From a virus: DNA of 20,961 bases. The translations under genes were made by a program, and so were the position numbers. Under the pieces are notes generated by a model that was not told where the DNA came from, made no database searches, and saw nothing but the letters and a program-made list of their open reading frames with translations. Below are positions 2,471 to 20,961 of this stretch, piece after piece; the first letter of the stretch is position 1, and each line of letters opens with the position of its first letter. Location: IMG/VR virus record IMGVR_UViG_3300032087_001767, positions 1-20,961 of that record; one strand, 5' to 3'.

Positions 2471-3682
2471 ATGGAAGAAGAAAACATGGTAAGCCAGGAA
2501 GAAAAAGTCCAGGCTACTACCGAAGATGACGGTGTCATCAAGGTTGATTTAAGAAACTTTAAACAAGAACAAGATGGCGTATCAAGCGAAAATGCCGAAG
2601 AAACCGGGGTGCGGATGTCCGACGATGAATTGTCAGTGTCAAGCGACACCACAACCAGTAACACAGACAGCGACGAGCCCAGCGAAGTACGGGAAGTCAC
2701 CAGCGAAGATGAGTCCGTACAAAATGACGGAGAGCCCGTTGAAGAAGTACGGGTGCTCGAGGAAGTAGTAGACGAGGAGGAACCCGTAGAAACTATTTCT
2801 GAAAACGTTGATGTAGAACCACCTACAGAAGCAGAAGAGCAAAAGGTAAACATTGAATTACCTGAAAACATCGAGAAACTGGTTGAGTTCATGAACGAAA
2901 CTGGTGGAACGCTTGAGGATTACGTTAGATTAAACCAAGATGTAAATGCTCTAGACGAGCAGAGCTTGGTGAAAGAATATTACAAGGTGACTAAACCACA
3001 CCTTGACGACGATGAAATTAATTTCTTGATCGAAGACAGTTATTCGTTTAACGAAGAGATGGATGACGAGAGAGATATTAAACGTAAAAAACTACTCTAC
3101 AAAGAAGAAGTTCAACGTGCTAAGGATCACTTGAACAATATGAAGAGCAAGTATTACGATGAGATTAAAGCTGGTAGTAGGTTAACGCCTGATCAGCAAA
3201 AAGCGGTTGATTTTTTCAATCGTTACCAGAAAGAAAATGAGGAATCATCAAAGCTAGTTGAAAAACAACAATCGGTTTTTAGAAATAAAACTGCTCAAGT
3301 CTTTAATGAAAAGTTCAAAGGTTTTGAATATAATGTTGGGGACAAGAAGTACCGATTTAACGTTAAAGACGCTAGTAAGGTAAAGGATGAACAGAGCGAC
3401 CTTAGTAATTTTACCAAAAAGTTTTTGGGTGAAGACAATACTATAGGAGACGCAAAGGGATATCACAAAGCCTTGTTTACGGCAATGAACGCAGATGCCG
3501 TAGCTAACCACTTCTACCAACAGGGTAGAGCTGACGCGATGAAAGAAAGCAGTCAACGTTCTAAGAATGTTGATATGAGTCCTAGAGGTACTCATGAGCA
3601 GACAACTCAAGTTGGCGGCTTCAAGGTAAGAGCGATTAGTGGTGATGATTCTGGTAGACTGCGTGTGAAAATTAGAAAATAA
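2471..3682 (+). CDS. Capsid scaffolding protein
   Basis: A 403-residue protein between portal and major capsid genes, the usual place for a scaffold that fills the procapsid and is lost at maturation. Residues 1-125 are extremely acidic and low in complexity (Glu, Asp, Ser, Thr, Val). Residues about 128-260 are helical and charged (NIELPENIEKLVEFM at about 127-141, then LEDYVRLNQD to 158). The C-terminus is basic and helix-forming (HFYQQGRADAMKE, then KVRAISGDDSGRLRVKIRK), the expected capsid-binding end. ATG 2471 was chosen because it follows the portal stop by 36 A/T-rich bases; ATG 2486 in the same frame is an alternative. Codons for residues 35-99 use CGG, CCC and TCC and avoid third-position T, unlike the rest of the gene; a second gene appears to lie in the +1 frame there. 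The function is inferred from position and composition; no enzymatic motif is visible. Confidence 0.8.
   Translation: MEEENMVSQEEKVQATTEDDGVIKVDLRNFKQEQDGVSSENAEETGVRMSDDELSVSSDTTTSNTDSDEPSEVREVTSEDESVQNDGEPVEEVRVLEEVVDEEEPVETISENVDVEPPTEAEEQKVNIELPENIEKLVEFMNETGGTLEDYVRLNQDVNALDEQSLVKEYYKVTKPHLDDDEINFLIEDSYSFNEEMDDERDIKRKKLLYKEEVQRAKDHLNNMKSKYYDEIKAGSRLTPDQQKAVDFFNRYQKENEESSKLVEKQQSVFRNKTAQVFNEKFKGFEYNVGDKKYRFNVKDASKVKDEQSDLSNFTKKFLGEDNTIGDAKGYHKALFTAMNADAVANHFYQQGRADAMKESSQRSKNVDMSPRGTHEQTTQVGGFKVRAISGDDSGRLRVKIRK
2574..2768 (+). CDS. Overprinted small basic SPxK/cysteine protein (candidate)
   Basis: A 64-residue reading frame wholly inside the scaffold gene, shifted +1. It starts at an ATG after TTTAAACAAGAACAAG, the same kind of A-rich leader as the accepted genes; the frame is open upstream only back to a TAA at 2550. 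The product is strongly basic (10 Lys and 1 Arg against 1 Glu). Two parts are visible: an N-terminal cysteine cluster C13-x-C15-x4-C20-x-C22, and a C-terminal run of four S-P-x-K motifs (35-38, 42-45, 47-50, 54-57) with KYG repeated at 38-40 and 58-60 and a last Cys at 61. SPKK-type motifs in histone H1 and related proteins bind the minor groove of A/T-rich DNA, so DNA binding or condensation is possible, but this is inference. Against chance: chance +1 frames elsewhere in this T-rich-wobble sequence are hydrophobic, this one is not, and scaffold wobble positions are distorted here. It could still be a by-product of an acidic low-complexity tract. Confidence 0.5.
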   Translation: MAYQAKMPKKPGCGCPTMNCQCQATPQPVTQTATSPAKYGKSPAKMSPYKMTESPLKKYGCSRK

Positions 3683-3701: not shown

Positions 3702-5123
3702 ATGAGTTTTGCATCACAGGGGGCGTACCCAGCAGGGTTGACTCCGTCTCCAACTAAAACATTGTTCGATAAGAACTACTTGTCTATTGCAGACAATGAT
3801 TTTAACTTCACCAAGCAATTCTTGCCTGAAGTTTACGAAAAAGAAGTAGAGCGCTACGGTAACAGATCTATCTCATCTTTCTTGAGAATGGTTGGTGCTG
3901 AAATGCCAATGGCTTCTGACGAAGTTGTATGGACAGAACAAGGCCGTTTGCACGTTGCTTACAACGACGCGGTTATTGCTACTGCCAACGACGCGACTGA
4001 CAACACCATCAACATCACTGGTCACGCTATCCGCGCTAACCAAACTATCATCGTTGCTGTAGGTGTTACTACTGTACGTGCTTTCGTTAAGTCTGTTTCT
4101 ACTAACAGCATCGAAGCATACCCATACGACAGCGACACTTGGCCAGCTGCTTTCGTTGCTTCTGGTACTAACCCAGACTTGAAAGTATTTGTATTTGGTT
4201 CTGAGTTTGGTAAAGGTGCTGCAGGAATGTCTGGATCTATCGATGCAGGGTTCCAAAAGTTCAGCAACTCTCCTATCATCATGAAAGACAAATACAACAT
4301 CAACGGTTCTGACACTGCTCAGATCGGTTGGGTTGAGGTTACTTCTGAGTTGGGTACTTCTGGTTACCTATGGTACTTGAAGTCTGAGCACGAAACACGT
4401 CTACGTTTCGAAGACTACTTGGAAATGACTATGGTAGAAGCTGAAAAAGTAACTGCTAGCTCTGGTATCTCTGATGCTTCTGGTGCTACAGTACGTGGTA
4501 CTGAAGGTTTGTTCGCGGCTGTTGAGTCTCGCGGTCTTCAGTTCAACGATCACGACTTTAACAACGGTACTGGTTTGACTGGTTTGGCTGAGTTTGACTT
4601 GGTTCTTCAAGAGCTTGACAAGCAAGGTGCTATTGAAGAGAACATGCTTTTCTTAGATCGTGGTACTGCTTTGGCAATTGACAACATGTTGGCTCGCGCT
4701 AACTCTTACGGAACTGGTGGTACTTCTTACGGAGTATTCGAAAACAGCGAAGACATGGCATTGAACTTGGGCTTCTCTGGTTTCCGTCGTGGTTCTTACG
4801 ATTTCTACAAAACTGACTGGAAATACTTGAATGACGCTGCAACTCGTGGGTTGACTGGTGACATCGATGGTATCTTGGTTCCAGCAGGTGTTTCTACTGT
4901 ATACGACCAAACATTGGGTAAAAACATCCAGCGTCCATTCTTGCACGTTCGTTACCGCGCTTCTGAAGCTGACGATCGTCGCATGAAGTCTTGGATCACT
5001 GGTTCTGTTGGTGGTAACTACACTAGCGACATTGATGAAATGAACGTACACATGCTTTCTGAAAGATGTTTGTGTGTTCAAGGTGCGAACAACTTCGTAT
5101 TGTTCAAAGACACTACTGTCTAA
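3702..5123 (+). CDS. Major capsid protein
   Basis: The 473-residue major head protein, expected to adopt the HK97 fold. It follows the scaffold directly and has the strongest expression-type codon bias in the window: Ile is only ATC or ATT (no ATA found), Arg is mostly CGT/CGC with three AGA, and Leu is mostly TTG, whereas neighbours rely on ATA, AGA and CTA/TTA. Seen: an N-terminal arm (residues 1-60, ending FLRMVGAEMP), a Thr/Val/Ala-rich beta domain around 80-165, then IIMKDKYNINGSD and QIGWVEVTSE, a pattern I remember from crAss-like and related marine capsid proteins, and a C-terminal ERCLCVQGANNFVLF strand. No insertion Ig-like domain is evident and no protease cleavage site can be identified. 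A strong terminator lies 15 bases after the stop, which would isolate its high-level transcription from the genes below. The call rests on position, codon bias, length and remembered motifs. Confidence 0.9.
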   Translation: MSFASQGAYPAGLTPSPTKTLFDKNYLSIADNDFNFTKQFLPEVYEKEVERYGNRSISSFLRMVGAEMPMASDEVVWTEQGRLHVAYNDAVIATANDATDNTINITGHAIRANQTIIVAVGVTTVRAFVKSVSTNSIEAYPYDSDTWPAAFVASGTNPDLKVFVFGSEFGKGAAGMSGSIDAGFQKFSNSPIIMKDKYNINGSDTAQIGWVEVTSELGTSGYLWYLKSEHETRLRFEDYLEMTMVEAEKVTASSGISDASGATVRGTEGLFAAVESRGLQFNDHDFNNGTGLTGLAEFDLVLQELDKQGAIEENMLFLDRGTALAIDNMLARANSYGTGGTSYGVFENSEDMALNLGFSGFRRGSYDFYKTDWKYLNDAATRGLTGDIDGILVPAGVSTVYDQTLGKNIQRPFLHVRYRASEADDRRMKSWITGSVGGNYTSDIDEMNVHMLSERCLCVQGANNFVLFKDTTV

Positions 5124-13998: not shown

Positions 13999-16900
13999 AT
14001 GTTTGAATACGAAGGACAACAGTATTCTCTTGAAGAGGTTCAAAAAGCTGCAGAACAAAGCGGTTTATCCGTTGAAGACTACGTTGCTAACGCTGGTTTA
14101 AAACCTTTAGAAGAGGGAAAGCAAGAGGGCGTGGTAGAGGGCGAGACCACAGAAGCCCAAGATCAAAAGCCCGTTACGGAATCATCATCGGAAGATGGTT
14201 CTTCGGAATTACAAGCATTTGATCCTAGCAAGCTAGGACCTATGGTCCAGGAAGAAGAAACTTACATGGGTGTATCTAGAAAGCCTATGTTAGTTCCTGA
14301 TACAGCTGATTACGAGGAAATGCGTAAAGCGGCTATTGATGAATTCAATGGTAGAAAGGCTGGACAAAAATTAAAAAACACACCTTTTGGACCAGTATTG
14401 CCTTATGACGACGATAAGCTTATTAATGAGTTCAATAACGAAACACTAAACGCTCTTGTAACTAAAGACCAGAAGATACAAGGTTTGATATCTCAAACCC
14501 TTGATGAAAAGAAAGACGAGATACAAGAGGGTTTGAATAACATAATGTCTGAGTACGAGGGTATGGATATAGAAGATCTGTCCCCACAAGACATAAAAAA
14601 AGTACAAGAAAAGTACTCTACACTGATAAATCAGTTAGCGTTCGCTAACCCAGATGTACAAAAAAGGATAGACACTTACGAGGGTCTTATAGGGGATGCT
14701 CATAAAAAAGACTACGATGATTACGTGGTTGATGATACCGTACTCGATCTAATGAACCGTAGTACGTTTGACGGTGTTTTAAGAGCAGTATATCAAAATA
14801 TGCCTACGTTTGTTAGGGGTGGTTACAAAAACATACACGGTGTAGGAACCTCTATAAAAGCTGGTGGTTTGTCTCAAGCTGAGTACTTAAAGGTTCAAGA
14901 ACAACACAACCGCAACTTAAAGAGAGCTGAAGAAGAAGGCTGGGATGAAAACACCGTTGGCTTCTTTAACTCTAAAGGTGCTTTTGTAGTACCCAAACAA
15001 GGTCGTTACCATCCAATAACATATGGTTTTACGCAAAAAGGTAAGTGGGGTGACGCAAAGAACCTTGCTGAAGAAAAAATAAAAGACGGTAAAGAAAACC
15101 AAGCAGAGAACTTAAAGTTAATTTTTGAGAGACAAGCGCTTGAATCACACTTTGGCCACGCTGATGTTAGAGATGTGCTAAGATCGGGCAAGTCTTGGAA
15201 TACCATAAAGACTATCGTCTCAGAGCAGTTGCCACAAATGGCTTCTGCTATTTTAAGTTTTGGTACACTACCCGCTGCGCAGATGGCTGGTGACAACTAC
15301 CTTAGACAAGTACAGTCTATAGCTAAAGAGAGATACAACACACCACAACCTAGCATCGAGCAATTGATGAAGGTTGTTGAAGATGATGTTGATGATGAAA
15401 TATTTAATAGTGCTGTAGCTGTCGGTGTTTACGGTGGTGCTGCAGAATACGTGGGTGCCACATCTGTGCTAGGTAAGTCTTTAGGCATGAATCTGCTTGG
15501 TTCTGAAGCTAGAAAAAATACAGCTGCGCTTATGAAAGGCCAGTTTAAAGCTTGGGGCCAACAGCAGTTGAAAAGAACAGGTACTTCATTTAGAGGTGGC
15601 TTTGACGAAATGATGACAGAAGTATTTCAACAAGCCGCTAGTGACGTTACTGTAGGTGAATACATAAAAGAGAACTACATCCAAGGTGGTGGCGCTGGAT
15701 TCGTTATGGGCTTCTTAATGCCGTTTGGATCAAATGTAGCCGCCAGTACCGCTAAAGAAGCATCAACCGCATACTCTATCGCTTCTGGCAAGCTTGACTT
15801 GAAAGGCATGAAGCAGTTTCACCAGTACAACCTTGGTAGATTAGATCAGGATCTAAAGATCGGTCAAATCACGCAAGAGCAGTACGATAGCAAGAAACAA
15901 CAGCTTGAAGACTTTATGATGAGTTCACAGAGGTTTGATCGTACCATGAGTGCCGATCAGAAAGCTTCTTTGATGGACGCTGTTTATGAGAAAAACGAAG
16001 CAGAACAAAAGCTAAAAAAATTCCAGGACTCAGAAGAAGGCCAACGTATAAAAGAACTTGAGCGCATTAGAAAAGAGGAAACTCAAGTGTTGAATCAAGA
16101 GCTTAAAGACGGTATTATAACTGAAGAGCAGCATGCTTCTCAAATGAGGGTGCTTGACAGTAAGTACAGAACCGTTGAGTCTATGAATCAGTTAAGTGAG
16201 CTAAAGAACAATGTCATACAAAAGACCATCGACCTAGTAGACAACATAGACTACAACAACAACCTTAACAGCACTATTAAAGCTTTCGCTGATCTAGATA
16301 TAGTTGGTGAAAACATAGTTGTCGCTGGCACTAGTAGAGAGTATGCTGCGGCAGTGTTGAAAGACAAGGGTATAACAAACCCTACAAAAGAAGAATTAGA
16401 CTACGCTGAGCAAGAGCTTGCTAAAAAACCAGGTGTTTTCACATCGAACAATAAGATCATACTTAACTCAGAGGGCTCTATTGCAACCGGTAACATTACA
16501 ACTGCAAGCCACGAGGTCTTCCACGCTGTGTTATACAACACGTTTACAGCGATGAAAGAAGGCAAAGCAGTCGTGAACGAGCAAGCTTTAACACAGACTA
16601 TAGGTGCTCTTAACGAGTATCTTGTGCAACTAGAAGATTCTGGCAAGATAAAGAATTTAGACGCTTGGAGAGCGAGGTTAAGATCATACCAAACGTTTGA
16701 GTTACTAGGTAAGAAGTACAACGCTGATGAGCTATACGCTAAAGCGGGTAGAAACATGCAGGAGTTTAATAGGTTAGTTAGTCTTTCAGAAGCAACATTT
16801 GAAACTAAAAACCTAGAAGAGTTCATGACAACTATGTCTGACGCTCTATTAAATGGTACTGTGCAGTACGATACTGGTTTCTTCGAAGCTATGGGCGACT

Positions 16901-19900
16901 TTATAAGAAGACTGTTACAAGCAGTTGGATTAAAAAGCGTTGAGTTCAATACTGGTAAAGACGTATTCAATTTCATTAGAGACTATAACAATTCTGTTAT
17001 AAAAGGCAAGTCTAACAAAGCCCAGAGAAGATTTGCTGAGTACGGTGGCAAAGGTGTTTTGTTGCAGATAGATCCAAACTCTATAGGTTCAAAAGCCGCT
17101 GAGGACATGAACTCTGTATCGGACATGGATGGTAAGAAGTCTGGACCAACGAAGGCGCAGCAAGAAATGAGCGCTGAGGTTCAAAGGCTTTGGGAAGAAC
17201 AGGGTGTTGGCTCTGTTTACGACATAGCTGAAATGTATAGACCTATGTTCCGCAAGGTTGTTATTCGTGGTGGATGGGATGCTTTACCAGGCTGGAGTCA
17301 GTACGCTGATATCATAGAGGACGAAGCGTTACTCGATATGGACGGTTTGGTTGGTATAGTCATGAGCTACAAAGACGACAAAGGTGTACCACTTGCAGCT
17401 TACATAAACAAGTACTTTGCGCTAAGAGCAGCGAGCATAAAGAACAAATATCTTGGAAAGACGTTCGATAAGAATGTAGACGATTTAAAAGGTGGTGGCC
17501 CAGCAGTGAGCCAAGAGCAAGAGATAGAAGATGCCATCGATAAACCATCTGGTCAAGGTGAATTCAGCAGGATCAGACGTAAGCTTGGTCTAGACCCACA
17601 GGAGATGAACATCGTTAGGGCCATAGTAACAAGAACACTTAGCCTATCTCCAGATCTATTGTCTACTAAGAAATGGAAGCCAAGCTTGTTTAGAGCTTAT
17701 CTACTAGAGGCATATAAGACTCAGATATACAAAACAGTACTTGAAAAATTCCCTACAAGGTCTACTAGATTTCAAGAGTGGGCTATGAAAAATAAGGGCT
17801 GGATTCAAGAAGAAATAAGCTTGAACACGCTTAGAAAGTTCCCAGCGTTAAACGGTGTTCTGTATGAATTCCAAAAAGACGCTAACGGAAAAGTGATGCG
17901 TTACAATACCGAAGAGTCTATAAGACTAGGTATAAAAGATGTTTACTCTGGTGTAAACAAGATCCAGCGCAGATTCCCAACACAAGAAGAGTGGGCAAAT
18001 TACTTAGACCCCACGCGTATAGGTAGAAGTAGAAACATGCCACACGAGCACAAGAGGGTGTTGGCTGAAGCTATCGCAATGGAACTGGGTCTAGATGCTA
18101 CGTTAGAGGTGATGCAAAACCCTAACCAACAGCAATACGATTTAGAGGGTAACCCTATCGAAGGCAGAGAGGTCAACATGTACGAGCGTATGATCGAGAA
18201 AAACGCTGACGTTGTTGAAGAAAACCAAGTTATCGGTAGAGTAGCGTACTTGCTAGAACGTGATCCTTTGATGAAATTTAGCCAAAGTGCGCTAGATGCG
18301 GGTATGGGAGGTCTTCGCATGGCTGAGCTCATCATGGAGAAGCCTGGACCGTTGTTAGACGCGTTTAGAGCAGCTATAAAACCATATAGACTGTTAGATA
18401 CTGTACAGAGAGATAATTCACTAGGTCAGCTTAGAATAGCTTTATCTAATTCTTTGGTAAACGCGTTTAAAGAGCACTATCCTTGGTTAAACGAGCAAAG
18501 CGCGAGCGTACTGTCCAAGCAGCTGGCTGTTGACTTCGCTAATATCGCTAGGAACATTGATGAGCTAAGGCTTTTGAATCATGAAAGAACACAGAAAGAG
18601 TTTGTTGATGCTTTAGCTGACAATCTATTTAACATAGCTCAAAACACGGTACTCAACGAAGGGTATAAGAATATTCTCAACGTAGAGCAAAATACGATAT
18701 CTGAAGAAGCTAAACCTATAACACTACAAAAGGTTTTTGATAACGACGTTTTAGGTATGTTGAATGGTACGGTTTCTATAGATCCTCTGACATTAAAAAA
18801 CAAATTAAAAGAGTCTTTCGCTAACGTAAAAAATTTGTACGCTAAAGGTTTATTAACCAGAGAAGAGGTTGCTTTGGTTTTTGATACCGTATTTGAAGGC
18901 AATAATCCTTTGATAAATAATGCGTCTAGGTTAGGTGTTAGCATGGTGTTGGGTAAAAACGTGCCAACATCGCTCATGTACTCTATACCAACAAAATATA
19001 TATCTGGTTATCTCGCAAACGTAGTTACTAATCCTAGAAAAACATACTCAGACATAGGTATATTAGATGACTTTGTTACCATACGTGTTTCTAAAAACTA
19101 CGCTAATAAAATAGTTGACAAACAAGGTGTTGGCATGCCACACTTTAGAAACAACATCGAACCAACGTTCTTGTCTAGAATATCAAAAGTATCAGTTGGT
19201 AAACAAGGTTCTAGTAACATGGAGATATACAAGGAAAATGGTGATGTTGTTACTATAAATCACTCTGATCTTGTAGGTCTTGATTATAACAACACTGTAG
19301 GTAAAAACATCCAATCGCTAATAGATAATCTTGATAAATTCTCTGTAAGCAGCAATGGTAAAGGTAAAGATAAGGGTAAGAAAAGAACACTTAAAGACCT
19401 TGACTCTGACCTGCAAAACATACTTGAAGAGCTACAAAACAACGGTACGCTAAATCAAGACCCAGAAAAAATGGCTCAAATAGAAGAGGAAGAAAGGCTA
19501 AATCAAAAAGCTGCTGACCTCGATGCTGAGTTCAATAGCATACTTGAACAGGTTACTGGTGTAGATGCTGGTACAGAGTTCTCTGAAGTAGCAGCAAGAC
19601 AAATAGGTAAGGGTAAAAACGAAAGAGTATTCTTTGTACCGCCTTCTCATGATGACTACAAGGGTTTGATAGAAAATTACCTTGTTGGAAAAGGTGCAGA
19701 AGCTAAGAAGCATATATCTTTCTTTGAAGAATATCTATTCGAACCATACTACGAGGGCGTGAACAACTACTCTTCTGAGCGTGTTAGAATGATGCGTCAG
19801 TACAGAGACGTTAAGAACACATTTAAGCCATTATTCAAAGACTTAAAGTCAGAAGCTTTTCCTGGTATGAGCGTTGAAAACGCTATAAGAGTATACATAT

Positions 19901-20961
19901 GGAGTAGAAAGGGTTATGAAATACCAGGTATATCTACAGAAGAAATTCAGAAAGCACAAAGCTTTGTTGTTAAAAACGGTTTGGCTAGAGAGGTTGCTCT
20001 TGAAATAATGAAGATTACCGATCTACACGGCCACGTTACACCTGGTAAACACTGGAACGGTGGTGGTATAGTTGGTGATATCATAGACTCGCTGAAAAAG
20101 AATAGCCGTGCTAAGTATCTTGAAGAGTGGAATCAAAATGTTGATTTCATATTCAACGAGAAAAATATGAATAAGCTTAGAGCTGCTTTTGGTAACGAGT
20201 ATGTAGAGTCTCTACAGAATATTATCAAGAGAATGAAGAGTGGTAGAAACAGGCTTGAAACTGGTGATTCAAAATACACTAACCAGATAATGGACTGGTT
20301 GAACGGTTCTGTTGGTGTTGTAATGTTTGCTAACACTAGATCAGCGATGTTGCAGTTGATATCGTTTACCAACTACATCGAGGCCGCTGGACCAAATAAC
20401 GTATTAAAAGCCGGTGCTGCTTACGCTAATCAGAAACAGTTCTGGAGCGATGTGATGAAGTTGATCAACTCAGACTACATGAGAGAACGTCGTGAGGGTC
20501 TTAAGATAGATATAAACGAAGCTGAGCTTGCTGATTCAACAAAGAACGCTACAAACAAGTTTAAAGCTGCTGTATCGTGGTTGTTGTCTAAAGGTTTTAT
20601 GCCTACACAGATCGCGGATTCACTTGCTATAGTTATGGGTGGTGCTCCTTACTACAGAAACTATGTTAACCAATACATGGAGCAAGGGCTATCACAAGAA
20701 GAAGCAGAAGCAAGAGCGTTTATTGATTTTAGAAATAAAACCGAGGAGTCTCAGCAGTCGTCAAGACCTGATAGAATTAGCTCTCAACAAGCTAGTCTTG
20801 GCGGTAGACTATTGTTGACGTTTGCTAACACGCAGTCTCAGTACGATAGGATAATTAAGAAAGAACTAAACAACCTTAAAAACAAAAGAGGAAACGCAGC
20901 TAATTCAATAGCTAGGATAGCTTACTACGGTATGGCTCAACACGCGTTGTTTGTCTCTTTA
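13999..20961 (+). CDS. Giant internal (ejected) virion protein with zincin motif, 3' end outside window
   Basis: This frame stays open from ATG 13999 to the last base, giving at least 2321 residues. N-terminus: FEYEGQQYSLEEVQKAAEQS and GLSVEDYVANAG (2-33), then an acidic linker to about 80. Gly/Ala-rich hydrophobic segments lie near 410-435, 468-500 and 555-588. Two SHOCT-like hairpins occur at 615-642 and 698-725. Residues 818-850 have a strand then helix with HEVFH at 838-842, the HExxH signature of zinc metallopeptidases; E940 or E941 (LEEF) could be the third ligand. Beyond about 1870 comes a block that I recall as conserved in marine phage giant proteins: VFFVPPSHDDYKG (1877-1889), WLNGSVGVVMFANTRSAMLQ (2100-2119), GFMPTQIADSLAI, EESQQSSRPDRISSQQAS. 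By order it corresponds to T7 gp16, but no lytic transglycosylase domain is seen. It is probably packaged and ejected; cleavage of host or cell-wall protein is inference. No virion RNA polymerase DxDGD motif was found in this part. Confidence 0.82.
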   Translation, partial: MFEYEGQQYSLEEVQKAAEQSGLSVEDYVANAGLKPLEEGKQEGVVEGETTEAQDQKPVTESSSEDGSSELQAFDPSKLGPMVQEEETYMGVSRKPMLVPDTADYEEMRKAAIDEFNGRKAGQKLKNTPFGPVLPYDDDKLINEFNNETLNALVTKDQKIQGLISQTLDEKKDEIQEGLNNIMSEYEGMDIEDLSPQDIKKVQEKYSTLINQLAFANPDVQKRIDTYEGLIGDAHKKDYDDYVVDDTVLDLMNRSTFDGVLRAVYQNMPTFVRGGYKNIHGVGTSIKAGGLSQAEYLKVQEQHNRNLKRAEEEGWDENTVGFFNSKGAFVVPKQGRYHPITYGFTQKGKWGDAKNLAEEKIKDGKENQAENLKLIFERQALESHFGHADVRDVLRSGKSWNTIKTIVSEQLPQMASAILSFGTLPAAQMAGDNYLRQVQSIAKERYNTPQPSIEQLMKVVEDDVDDEIFNSAVAVGVYGGAAEYVGATSVLGKSLGMNLLGSEARKNTAALMKGQFKAWGQQQLKRTGTSFRGGFDEMMTEVFQQAASDVTVGEYIKENYIQGGGAGFVMGFLMPFGSNVAASTAKEASTAYSIASGKLDLKGMKQFHQYNLGRLDQDLKIGQITQEQYDSKKQQLEDFMMSSQRFDRTMSADQKASLMDAVYEKNEAEQKLKKFQDSEEGQRIKELERIRKEETQVLNQELKDGIITEEQHASQMRVLDSKYRTVESMNQLSELKNNVIQKTIDLVDNIDYNNNLNSTIKAFADLDIVGENIVVAGTSREYAAAVLKDKGITNPTKEELDYAEQELAKKPGVFTSNNKIILNSEGSIATGNITTASHEVFHAVLYNTFTAMKEGKAVVNEQALTQTIGALNEYLVQLEDSGKIKNLDAWRARLRSYQTFELLGKKYNADELYAKAGRNMQEFNRLVSLSEATFETKNLEEFMTTMSDALLNGTVQYDTGFFEAMGDFIRRLLQAVGLKSVEFNTGKDVFNFIRDYNNSVIKGKSNKAQRRFAEYGGKGVLLQIDPNSIGSKAAEDMNSVSDMDGKKSGPTKAQQEMSAEVQRLWEEQGVGSVYDIAEMYRPMFRKVVIRGGWDALPGWSQYADIIEDEALLDMDGLVGIVMSYKDDKGVPLAAYINKYFALRAASIKNKYLGKTFDKNVDDLKGGGPAVSQEQEIEDAIDKPSGQGEFSRIRRKLGLDPQEMNIVRAIVTRTLSLSPDLLSTKKWKPSLFRAYLLEAYKTQIYKTVLEKFPTRSTRFQEWAMKNKGWIQEEISLNTLRKFPALNGVLYEFQKDANGKVMRYNTEESIRLGIKDVYSGVNKIQRRFPTQEEWANYLDPTRIGRSRNMPHEHKRVLAEAIAMELGLDATLEVMQNPNQQQYDLEGNPIEGREVNMYERMIEKNADVVEENQVIGRVAYLLERDPLMKFSQSALDAGMGGLRMAELIMEKPGPLLDAFRAAIKPYRLLDTVQRDNSLGQLRIALSNSLVNAFKEHYPWLNEQSASVLSKQLAVDFANIARNIDELRLLNHERTQKEFVDALADNLFNIAQNTVLNEGYKNILNVEQNTISEEAKPITLQKVFDNDVLGMLNGTVSIDPLTLKNKLKESFANVKNLYAKGLLTREEVALVFDTVFEGNNPLINNASRLGVSMVLGKNVPTSLMYSIPTKYISGYLANVVTNPRKTYSDIGILDDFVTIRVSKNYANKIVDKQGVGMPHFRNNIEPTFLSRISKVSVGKQGSSNMEIYKENGDVVTINHSDLVGLDYNNTVGKNIQSLIDNLDKFSVSSNGKGKDKGKKRTLKDLDSDLQNILEELQNNGTLNQDPEKMAQIEEEERLNQKAADLDAEFNSILEQVTGVDAGTEFSEVAARQIGKGKNERVFFVPPSHDDYKGLIENYLVGKGAEAKKHISFFEEYLFEPYYEGVNNYSSERVRMMRQYRDVKNTFKPLFKDLKSEAFPGMSVENAIRVYIWSRKGYEIPGISTEEIQKAQSFVVKNGLAREVALEIMKITDLHGHVTPGKHWNGGGIVGDIIDSLKKNSRAKYLEEWNQNVDFIFNEKNMNKLRAAFGNEYVESLQNIIKRMKSGRNRLETGDSKYTNQIMDWLNGSVGVVMFANTRSAMLQLISFTNYIEAAGPNNVLKAGAAYANQKQFWSDVMKLINSDYMRERREGLKIDINEAELADSTKNATNKFKAAVSWLLSKGFMPTQIADSLAIVMGGAPYYRNYVNQYMEQGLSQEEAEARAFIDFRNKTEESQQSSRPDRISSQQASLGGRLLLTFANTQSQYDRIIKKELNNLKNKRGNAANSIARIAYYGMAQHALFVSL

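Follow-up and report, generated by a model that had tools for sequence, protein, structure and literature searches.

The phiX174 gene E, a same-strand overprinted phage gene that lies within gene D, encodes a membrane lysis protein, and DNA-binding tails built from SPKK motifs are known from histone H1 and sperm H2B. The ShiLan element is an out-of-frame HNH endonuclease hidden in a phage methylase gene (PMC11855218). Here we describe a gene that resembles the phiX174 E/D pair in being complete, with its own start, in an alternative frame of a putative head-assembly gene, and that resembles ShiLan (PMC11855218) in being small and hidden out of frame while the host gene stays open across it. 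In the open literature that we searched, no description of such a nested gene was encountered.

A nested reading frame in the scaffold-position gene

The DNA that we analyzed (hereafter the window) spans 20,961 bases, the full length of an IMG/VR virus record, and probably represents a genome fragment. On its plus strand, a portal protein gene (positions 11–2434; phrog_6547, E 1e-152) is followed by a gene for a 403-amino acid protein with an acidic N-terminus (2471–3682) and by a gene for a virion structural protein (3702–5123; phrog_13704); the latter is, by position, the major capsid protein (MCP) gene and has weak Pfam matches to Crass_capsid and SU10_MCP (E about 0.06). For the protein encoded by 2471–3682, searches of Pfam and PHROG gave nothing that rose above noise. 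Its location in the portal-MCP interval and its acidity agree with a scaffolding protein, and relatives carry the annotation “structural protein”; we refer to it as the scaffold gene by position, a label taken from gene order and acidity only.

Within this host gene, positions 2574–2768 (plus strand, stop codon included) form a complete reading frame with its own start and stop codons, which the offset of 103 bases from the host start (2574 − 2471) places in the +1 frame. The encoded protein of 64 amino acids is MAYQAKMPKKPGCGCPTMNCQCQATPQPVTQTATSPAKYGKSPAKMSPYKMTESPLKKYGCSRK. The features for which this frame had been singled out in a preliminary description of the DNA could all be verified: 64 codons with their own ATG, an A-rich leader, 11 basic residues (10 Lys and 1 Arg) against a single acidic one (Glu), four S-P-x-K motifs (SPAK at 35–38 and 42–45, SPYK at 47–50, SPLK at 54–57) and a repeated KYG (38–40 and 58–60). 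Five cysteines (residues 13, 15, 20, 22, and 61) include a CxC...CxC arrangement. The leader, which ends in TTTAAACAAGAACAAG, follows a nested-frame stop codon at 2550–2552 and extends to position 2573. The assertion that the other +1 frames of the window read as hydrophobic peptides holds broadly, since the residues AILMFWV make up 20% of the nested protein vs. 31–64% of the products of the other +1 ORFs of at least 28 codons, with the single exception of a 29-amino acid ORF at 24%. A Lys/Arg-rich +1 ORF of 29 codons is located at 2244–2330, close to the end of the portal gene.

The length of the nested ORF is by itself not significant: in codon-shuffled versions of the scaffold gene, an equal +1 stop-free run occurred in 11–15% of the cases (p = 0.11 with codon permutation, p = 0.15 with genome codon usage). 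Its status as a gene is argued from conservation and not from ORF length. The 64-residue protein had no match in Pfam, PHROGs, PDB sequences, or the INPHARED phages; an endonuclease of the kind expected in an out-of-frame homing element was not recognized in the hidden frame of 64 amino acids with Pfam and PHROG. AlphaFold could not assign the nested protein a confident structure (pLDDT 53).

Conservation and selection among close homologs

When viral contigs were scanned with the 64-residue protein, 13 loci were recovered, and all of them have the ORF inside the scaffold-position gene and in an identical frame. Removal of identical genes left 11 homologs in addition to the window; a further candidate (L106) was dropped as a GC-rich chance match. 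In each of the 11 unique homologs, the Cys/SPxK ORF is open, without stop codons, and its indels are multiples of three. SPAK-type units have been gained and lost in frame, and the number of SPxK motifs varies from 3 to 6.

Because codon position 1 of the scaffold gene is position 3 of the nested frame, stronger constraint on the +1 frame than on the scaffold frame should give a rotated substitution pattern. We compared ten close scaffold genes. In the overlap, 24 first, 12 second, and 13 third positions of the scaffold codons varied (each of 56), while outside the overlap 67 of 337 first positions and 187 of 337 third positions varied (Fisher's test: p = 1e-5 for position 3 and p = 5e-4 for position 1). 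We also compared nested proteins with a pairwise null in which both scaffold proteins were kept and codon pairs were redrawn. For the window and locus L082, the nested identity was 0.92, vs. 0.54 under the null (s.d. 0.06, maximum 0.75 in 3000 draws); for the distant locus L092, the identity of 0.45 equaled the null maximum, with a null mean of 0.24. Arginine is encoded by CGG in 3 of 3 cases inside the overlap and in 0 of 213 cases elsewhere (four other genes); codon use in the overlap is forced. Collectively, the nested frame is open and under purifying selection beyond the constraint exerted by the host gene. The check proposed in the preliminary description, an inspection of homologous scaffold genes for +1 stop codons and normal synonymous variability, has thereby been run and the ORF passed it, so that the claim of an overprinted gene within the scaffold gene is strongly supported by the rotated substitutions and by identity above the scaffold-only null.

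The opposing reading, namely that an acidic scaffold N-terminus and its unusual codon use produce the +1 ORF as a non-coding side effect, could draw on the non-significant ORF length (p 0.11–0.15) and on the fact that GAA-rich acidic frames give a Lys-rich +1 reading. It is refuted, however, by the rotated substitutions, by a nested identity far over the scaffold-only null, by the conservation of the ATG and its leader, and by the recurrence of the protein family within another host gene (see below), and we assign it a negligible probability. From these sequence comparisons, we regard 2574–2768 as almost certainly a real gene.

Translation initiation and dual coding constraint

In Flavobacterium johnsoniae, A residues at positions −13, −12, −6, and −3 raise translation (PMC6847099). 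At 178 nested starts in scaffold genes of the wider phage group, A occupies these positions in 90, 92, 84, and 75% of the cases, respectively; in scaffold N-termini that lack a nested ORF, A accounts for 29–48% of the bases, depending on the codon position. Predicted RNA structure at the nested start is weak (−2.1 vs. −5.4 kcal/mol elsewhere in the gene). The nested starts are in this respect suited to Flavobacterium ribosomes, and the window leader (TTTAAACAAGAACAAG-ATG) is likewise A-rich. Ribosomes would thus initiate independently at the nested ATG, through an A-rich, unstructured leader of the Bacteroidota type on the late head-gene mRNA, and the nested product is very probably made together with the head proteins.

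The same-strand +1 geometry would also suit ribosomal frameshifting, by which the +1 segment would become the C-terminal extension of a truncated scaffold protein. Yet in 113 of 113 cases the nested ATG is preceded by a +1-frame stop codon at a distance of 21 codons or less (median about 7), so that neither readthrough nor frameshifting is needed; moreover, similarity begins at the ATG and the leader fits an initiation site. We consider frameshifting very unlikely.

Lysine in the nested proteins is encoded by AAG in 66% of the cases, whereas the downstream scaffold region mostly uses AAA, and G is present at the nested wobble base in 54–56%. A wobble G turns the host codon into GNN, which makes the host frame acidic (GAA/GNN) and stop-free. 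Both frames are constrained at once, the wobble G keeping the host acidic and free of stops and the nested frame rich in lysine. Asp and Glu account for 32% of the overlapped host stretch, which is similar to the 35% of the corresponding region in relatives that lack a nested ORF.

Occupants of the same slot in related phages

Eighty loci, fetched solely by their capsid protein, gave 73 unique scaffold genes, of which 40 contain a recognized nested +1 ORF. When searches seeded on nested proteins were added, the set grew to 218 unique scaffold coding sequences, 178 of them nested, with 160 distinct nested proteins; since such searches favor nested cases, 40 of 73 is the fairer frequency. The earlier statement that similar proteins occur in uncultured marine phages is supported by these scans of homologs and relatives.

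In most cases, the occupant of the slot is another small basic protein, represented by MPFKSKAQMRFLYATNPKLAKKYQSKTSKKQLKNLPEK or the variant CYAQNNPKWDCKKW and here called the MPFKSK type. Profiles of the two variants align with an hhalign E-value of 2e-17; they share no row, but related sequences occur in both. Among 48 pairs without a common sequence, some of them close and with few differences, 37 of 40 had more change at scaffold position 1 than at position 3 inside the overlap, as against 1 of 48 outside it (pooled p = 6e-52). The family comprises basic proteins of 29–68 amino acids, constrained in both frames, from a diverse phage group. PHROG 1375, a group of small phage proteins, is matched by 12 of 26 MPFKSK-type nested proteins (best E 1.5e-5), although this is a loose model that also finds matches in 3 of 14 control genomes; the Cys/SPxK protein of the window does not match it. 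For an MPFKSK protein, AlphaFold predicts a confident three-helical structure with a disordered tail (pLDDT 84). A fold search with this model returned no solved structure and only uncharacterized phage proteins, none with an E-value below 0.001, and PDB matches of the MPFKSK profile to designed “Cake” proteins were discarded because they cover short stretches of designed repeats. No homolog of known function was found for the nested proteins, and none of the structural matches was significant.

A third nested +1 variant, short and Lys-rich (MPYKTKSKGMMKSKPM...), is present in the N-terminal region of the scaffold genes of L068 and L070. In L020, a truncated remnant (MPPLHNPLSNQRNSRLAKK) ends at a stop codon where L022 reads TGG, and the flanking scaffold sequence closely matches L022 and L032; the nested ORF has apparently been lost recently in L020. 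When the records of L012, L002, L020, and L076 and the phages Panino and phi38:1, several of these records being possibly fragments, were searched elsewhere for a nested basic ORF, no clear copy was found. The record of L076 (L219), a relative in which the nested ORF is absent, contains at about 13271 standalone small basic ORFs such as MANKFKPHMMYKGKSAIKADTYKKHLELKKKGYGHKKPK, which are possible functional substitutes.

How does the window protein relate to the MPFKSK type? Both occupy the +1 frame in the N-terminal part of a scaffold-position gene, and both have an SP-K tail theme. Profile similarity was confined to this tail (hhalign probability 3%, no PHROG match), which does not support homology of the two types. 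In the capsid tree, the Cys/SPxK type forms one clade (support 96), and its neighbors by capsid (L001–L004) have no recognized nested ORF, which indicates that the gene is dispensable or has been replaced there. The Cys/SPxK type may represent a replacement, an extreme remodeling or an independent origin.

A second host gene and standalone copies

The scaffold gene of the cultured Flavobacterium phage elemoE 6-9C (NC_055854), and that of MW202828, is devoid of a nested ORF. Both genomes encode instead an unannotated MPFKSK protein, nested +1 within a giant gene of the virion region that measures 11 kb. In NC_055854, the nested gene (52512–52640; L203:6513–6641) lies in the +1 frame of the giant structural gene gp18, and a DUF3293 domain follows about 60 codons further on. 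Nesting in giant genes was also found in 15 viral contigs and in 5 MAG contigs, one of them at 58% GC, and substitutions are rotated in these hosts as well (viral set, p = 6e-12). A family-profile search of 21 large records detected exactly one match in 19 of them. A giant gene of at least 2321 codons (13999–20961) runs past the end of the window; the portion searched gave no Pfam or PHROG match, and this gene likely corresponds to the giant genes in which the nested ORF resides in other phages.

None of the 178 scaffold-nested and 20 giant-nested copies has a stop codon in the frame in host phase, which follows from the way in which the set was built. Stop codons interrupt the corresponding frame in 12 of 13 standalone copies, so that the small protein as such does not entail an open host frame. 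Since the family also stands alone in unrelated phages, the small protein is probably the older partner at the MPFKSK loci, with the acidic host stretch overprinted on it. Host-gene switching could not be read from the nested-protein tree, whose 48 columns are too few; its starred branches force only 2 changes of the giant-gene label.

Standalone relatives are found directly upstream of terminase genes (L159, L165, L168, L193, and L319, in which the small terminase is gp3-like and a portal gene is present), in the portal-scaffold/MCP interval (L187), upstream of a scaffold-like gene and the MCP gene (L182) and, in other phages, amid small accessory ORFs. Sites next to packaging and head genes favor, but do not prove, a role in head formation or packaging. 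The positions just upstream of terminase genes and among accessory ORFs, together with Cys pairs that could bind a metal, would suit a peptide that serves regulation or host takeover (in late transcription, in the control of terminase, or as an anti-host factor) and is not a head component. All nested copies whose host gene can be placed are, however, in late genes of the virion region, and we hold a regulatory product to be rather improbable. An unannotated standalone gene (MPFKSEKQRKFLYANKPKLAKQWTKKYGTKKKRK) is located between two called genes of Phage C75C1 (L110, 4501–4605).

Different virion-region genes have acidic peptides in common (DAVQEQ...VPVQPE..GEEV.QG) wherever a nested gene underlies them; these echo peptides occur in L307, L310, L317, and L321 and in the giant genes of L170, L191, L192, L227, and L242. 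They could be mistaken for a domain in similarity searches.

Discussion

Our data suggest that the window gene fills a slot held in relatives by a small basic MPFKSK-type protein, which is encoded either in the +1 frame of the scaffold gene or a giant virion gene, or alone beside packaging and head genes. Most likely, a late small basic product of this kind would act while heads assemble and DNA is packaged, by binding either nucleic acid or the acidic scaffold, a role to which we give roughly an even chance. With somewhat less confidence, we propose that the small basic gene is mainly a +1 passenger, present in one copy per genome and moved among scaffold, giant virion, and standalone sites; the acidic host stretch (e.g., DAVQEQSTDESVLRTEQPEV) would then be largely an echo imposed by the passenger, which in the window clade was replaced by, or rebuilt into, the Cys/SPxK protein.

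The preliminary description had envisaged a packaged DNA-condensing protein that binds the minor groove through SPKK-type motifs. Like the SPKK tails, the window protein is a Lys-rich chain with Ser-Pro-basic repeats; its surplus of 11 Lys/Arg over one acidic residue, its richness in Pro and Ser, the lack of a confident fold, and the expansion and contraction of its SPxK repeats would fit such a protein. Unlike those tails, whose repeats read S/T-P-K/R-K/R, the window motifs (SPAK, SPAK, SPYK, SPLK) carry A, Y, or L as third residue; the protein has Cys pairs in addition, and its DNA binding is putative. The variable number of SPxK motifs weakens the proposal further, as do the same-slot proteins of most relatives, which are different, helical, and free of Cys/SPxK repeats. 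Beyond basic charge, we found no support for condensation and judge it unlikely.

Annotation has thus overlooked a conserved gene throughout a large set of aquatic phages, among them the cultured elemo phage NC_055854; the presumable reason is that gene callers reject an ORF contained in a longer one. Its presence explains acidic peptides common to otherwise unrelated virion proteins, and it points to an uncharacterized head or packaging factor that is testable in cultured Flavobacterium phages. One family nested in two unrelated host genes also offers a natural replicate for studies of overprinting.

In contrast to phiX174 E/D, the locus belongs to tailed dsDNA phages, its product is basic and hydrophilic and not a membrane lysis protein, and the slot protein of the relatives also nests in a second, unrelated gene. 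It differs from ShiLan (PMC11855218) in that HNH or homing signatures are absent and that a basic family of 29–68 amino acids is constrained in both frames.
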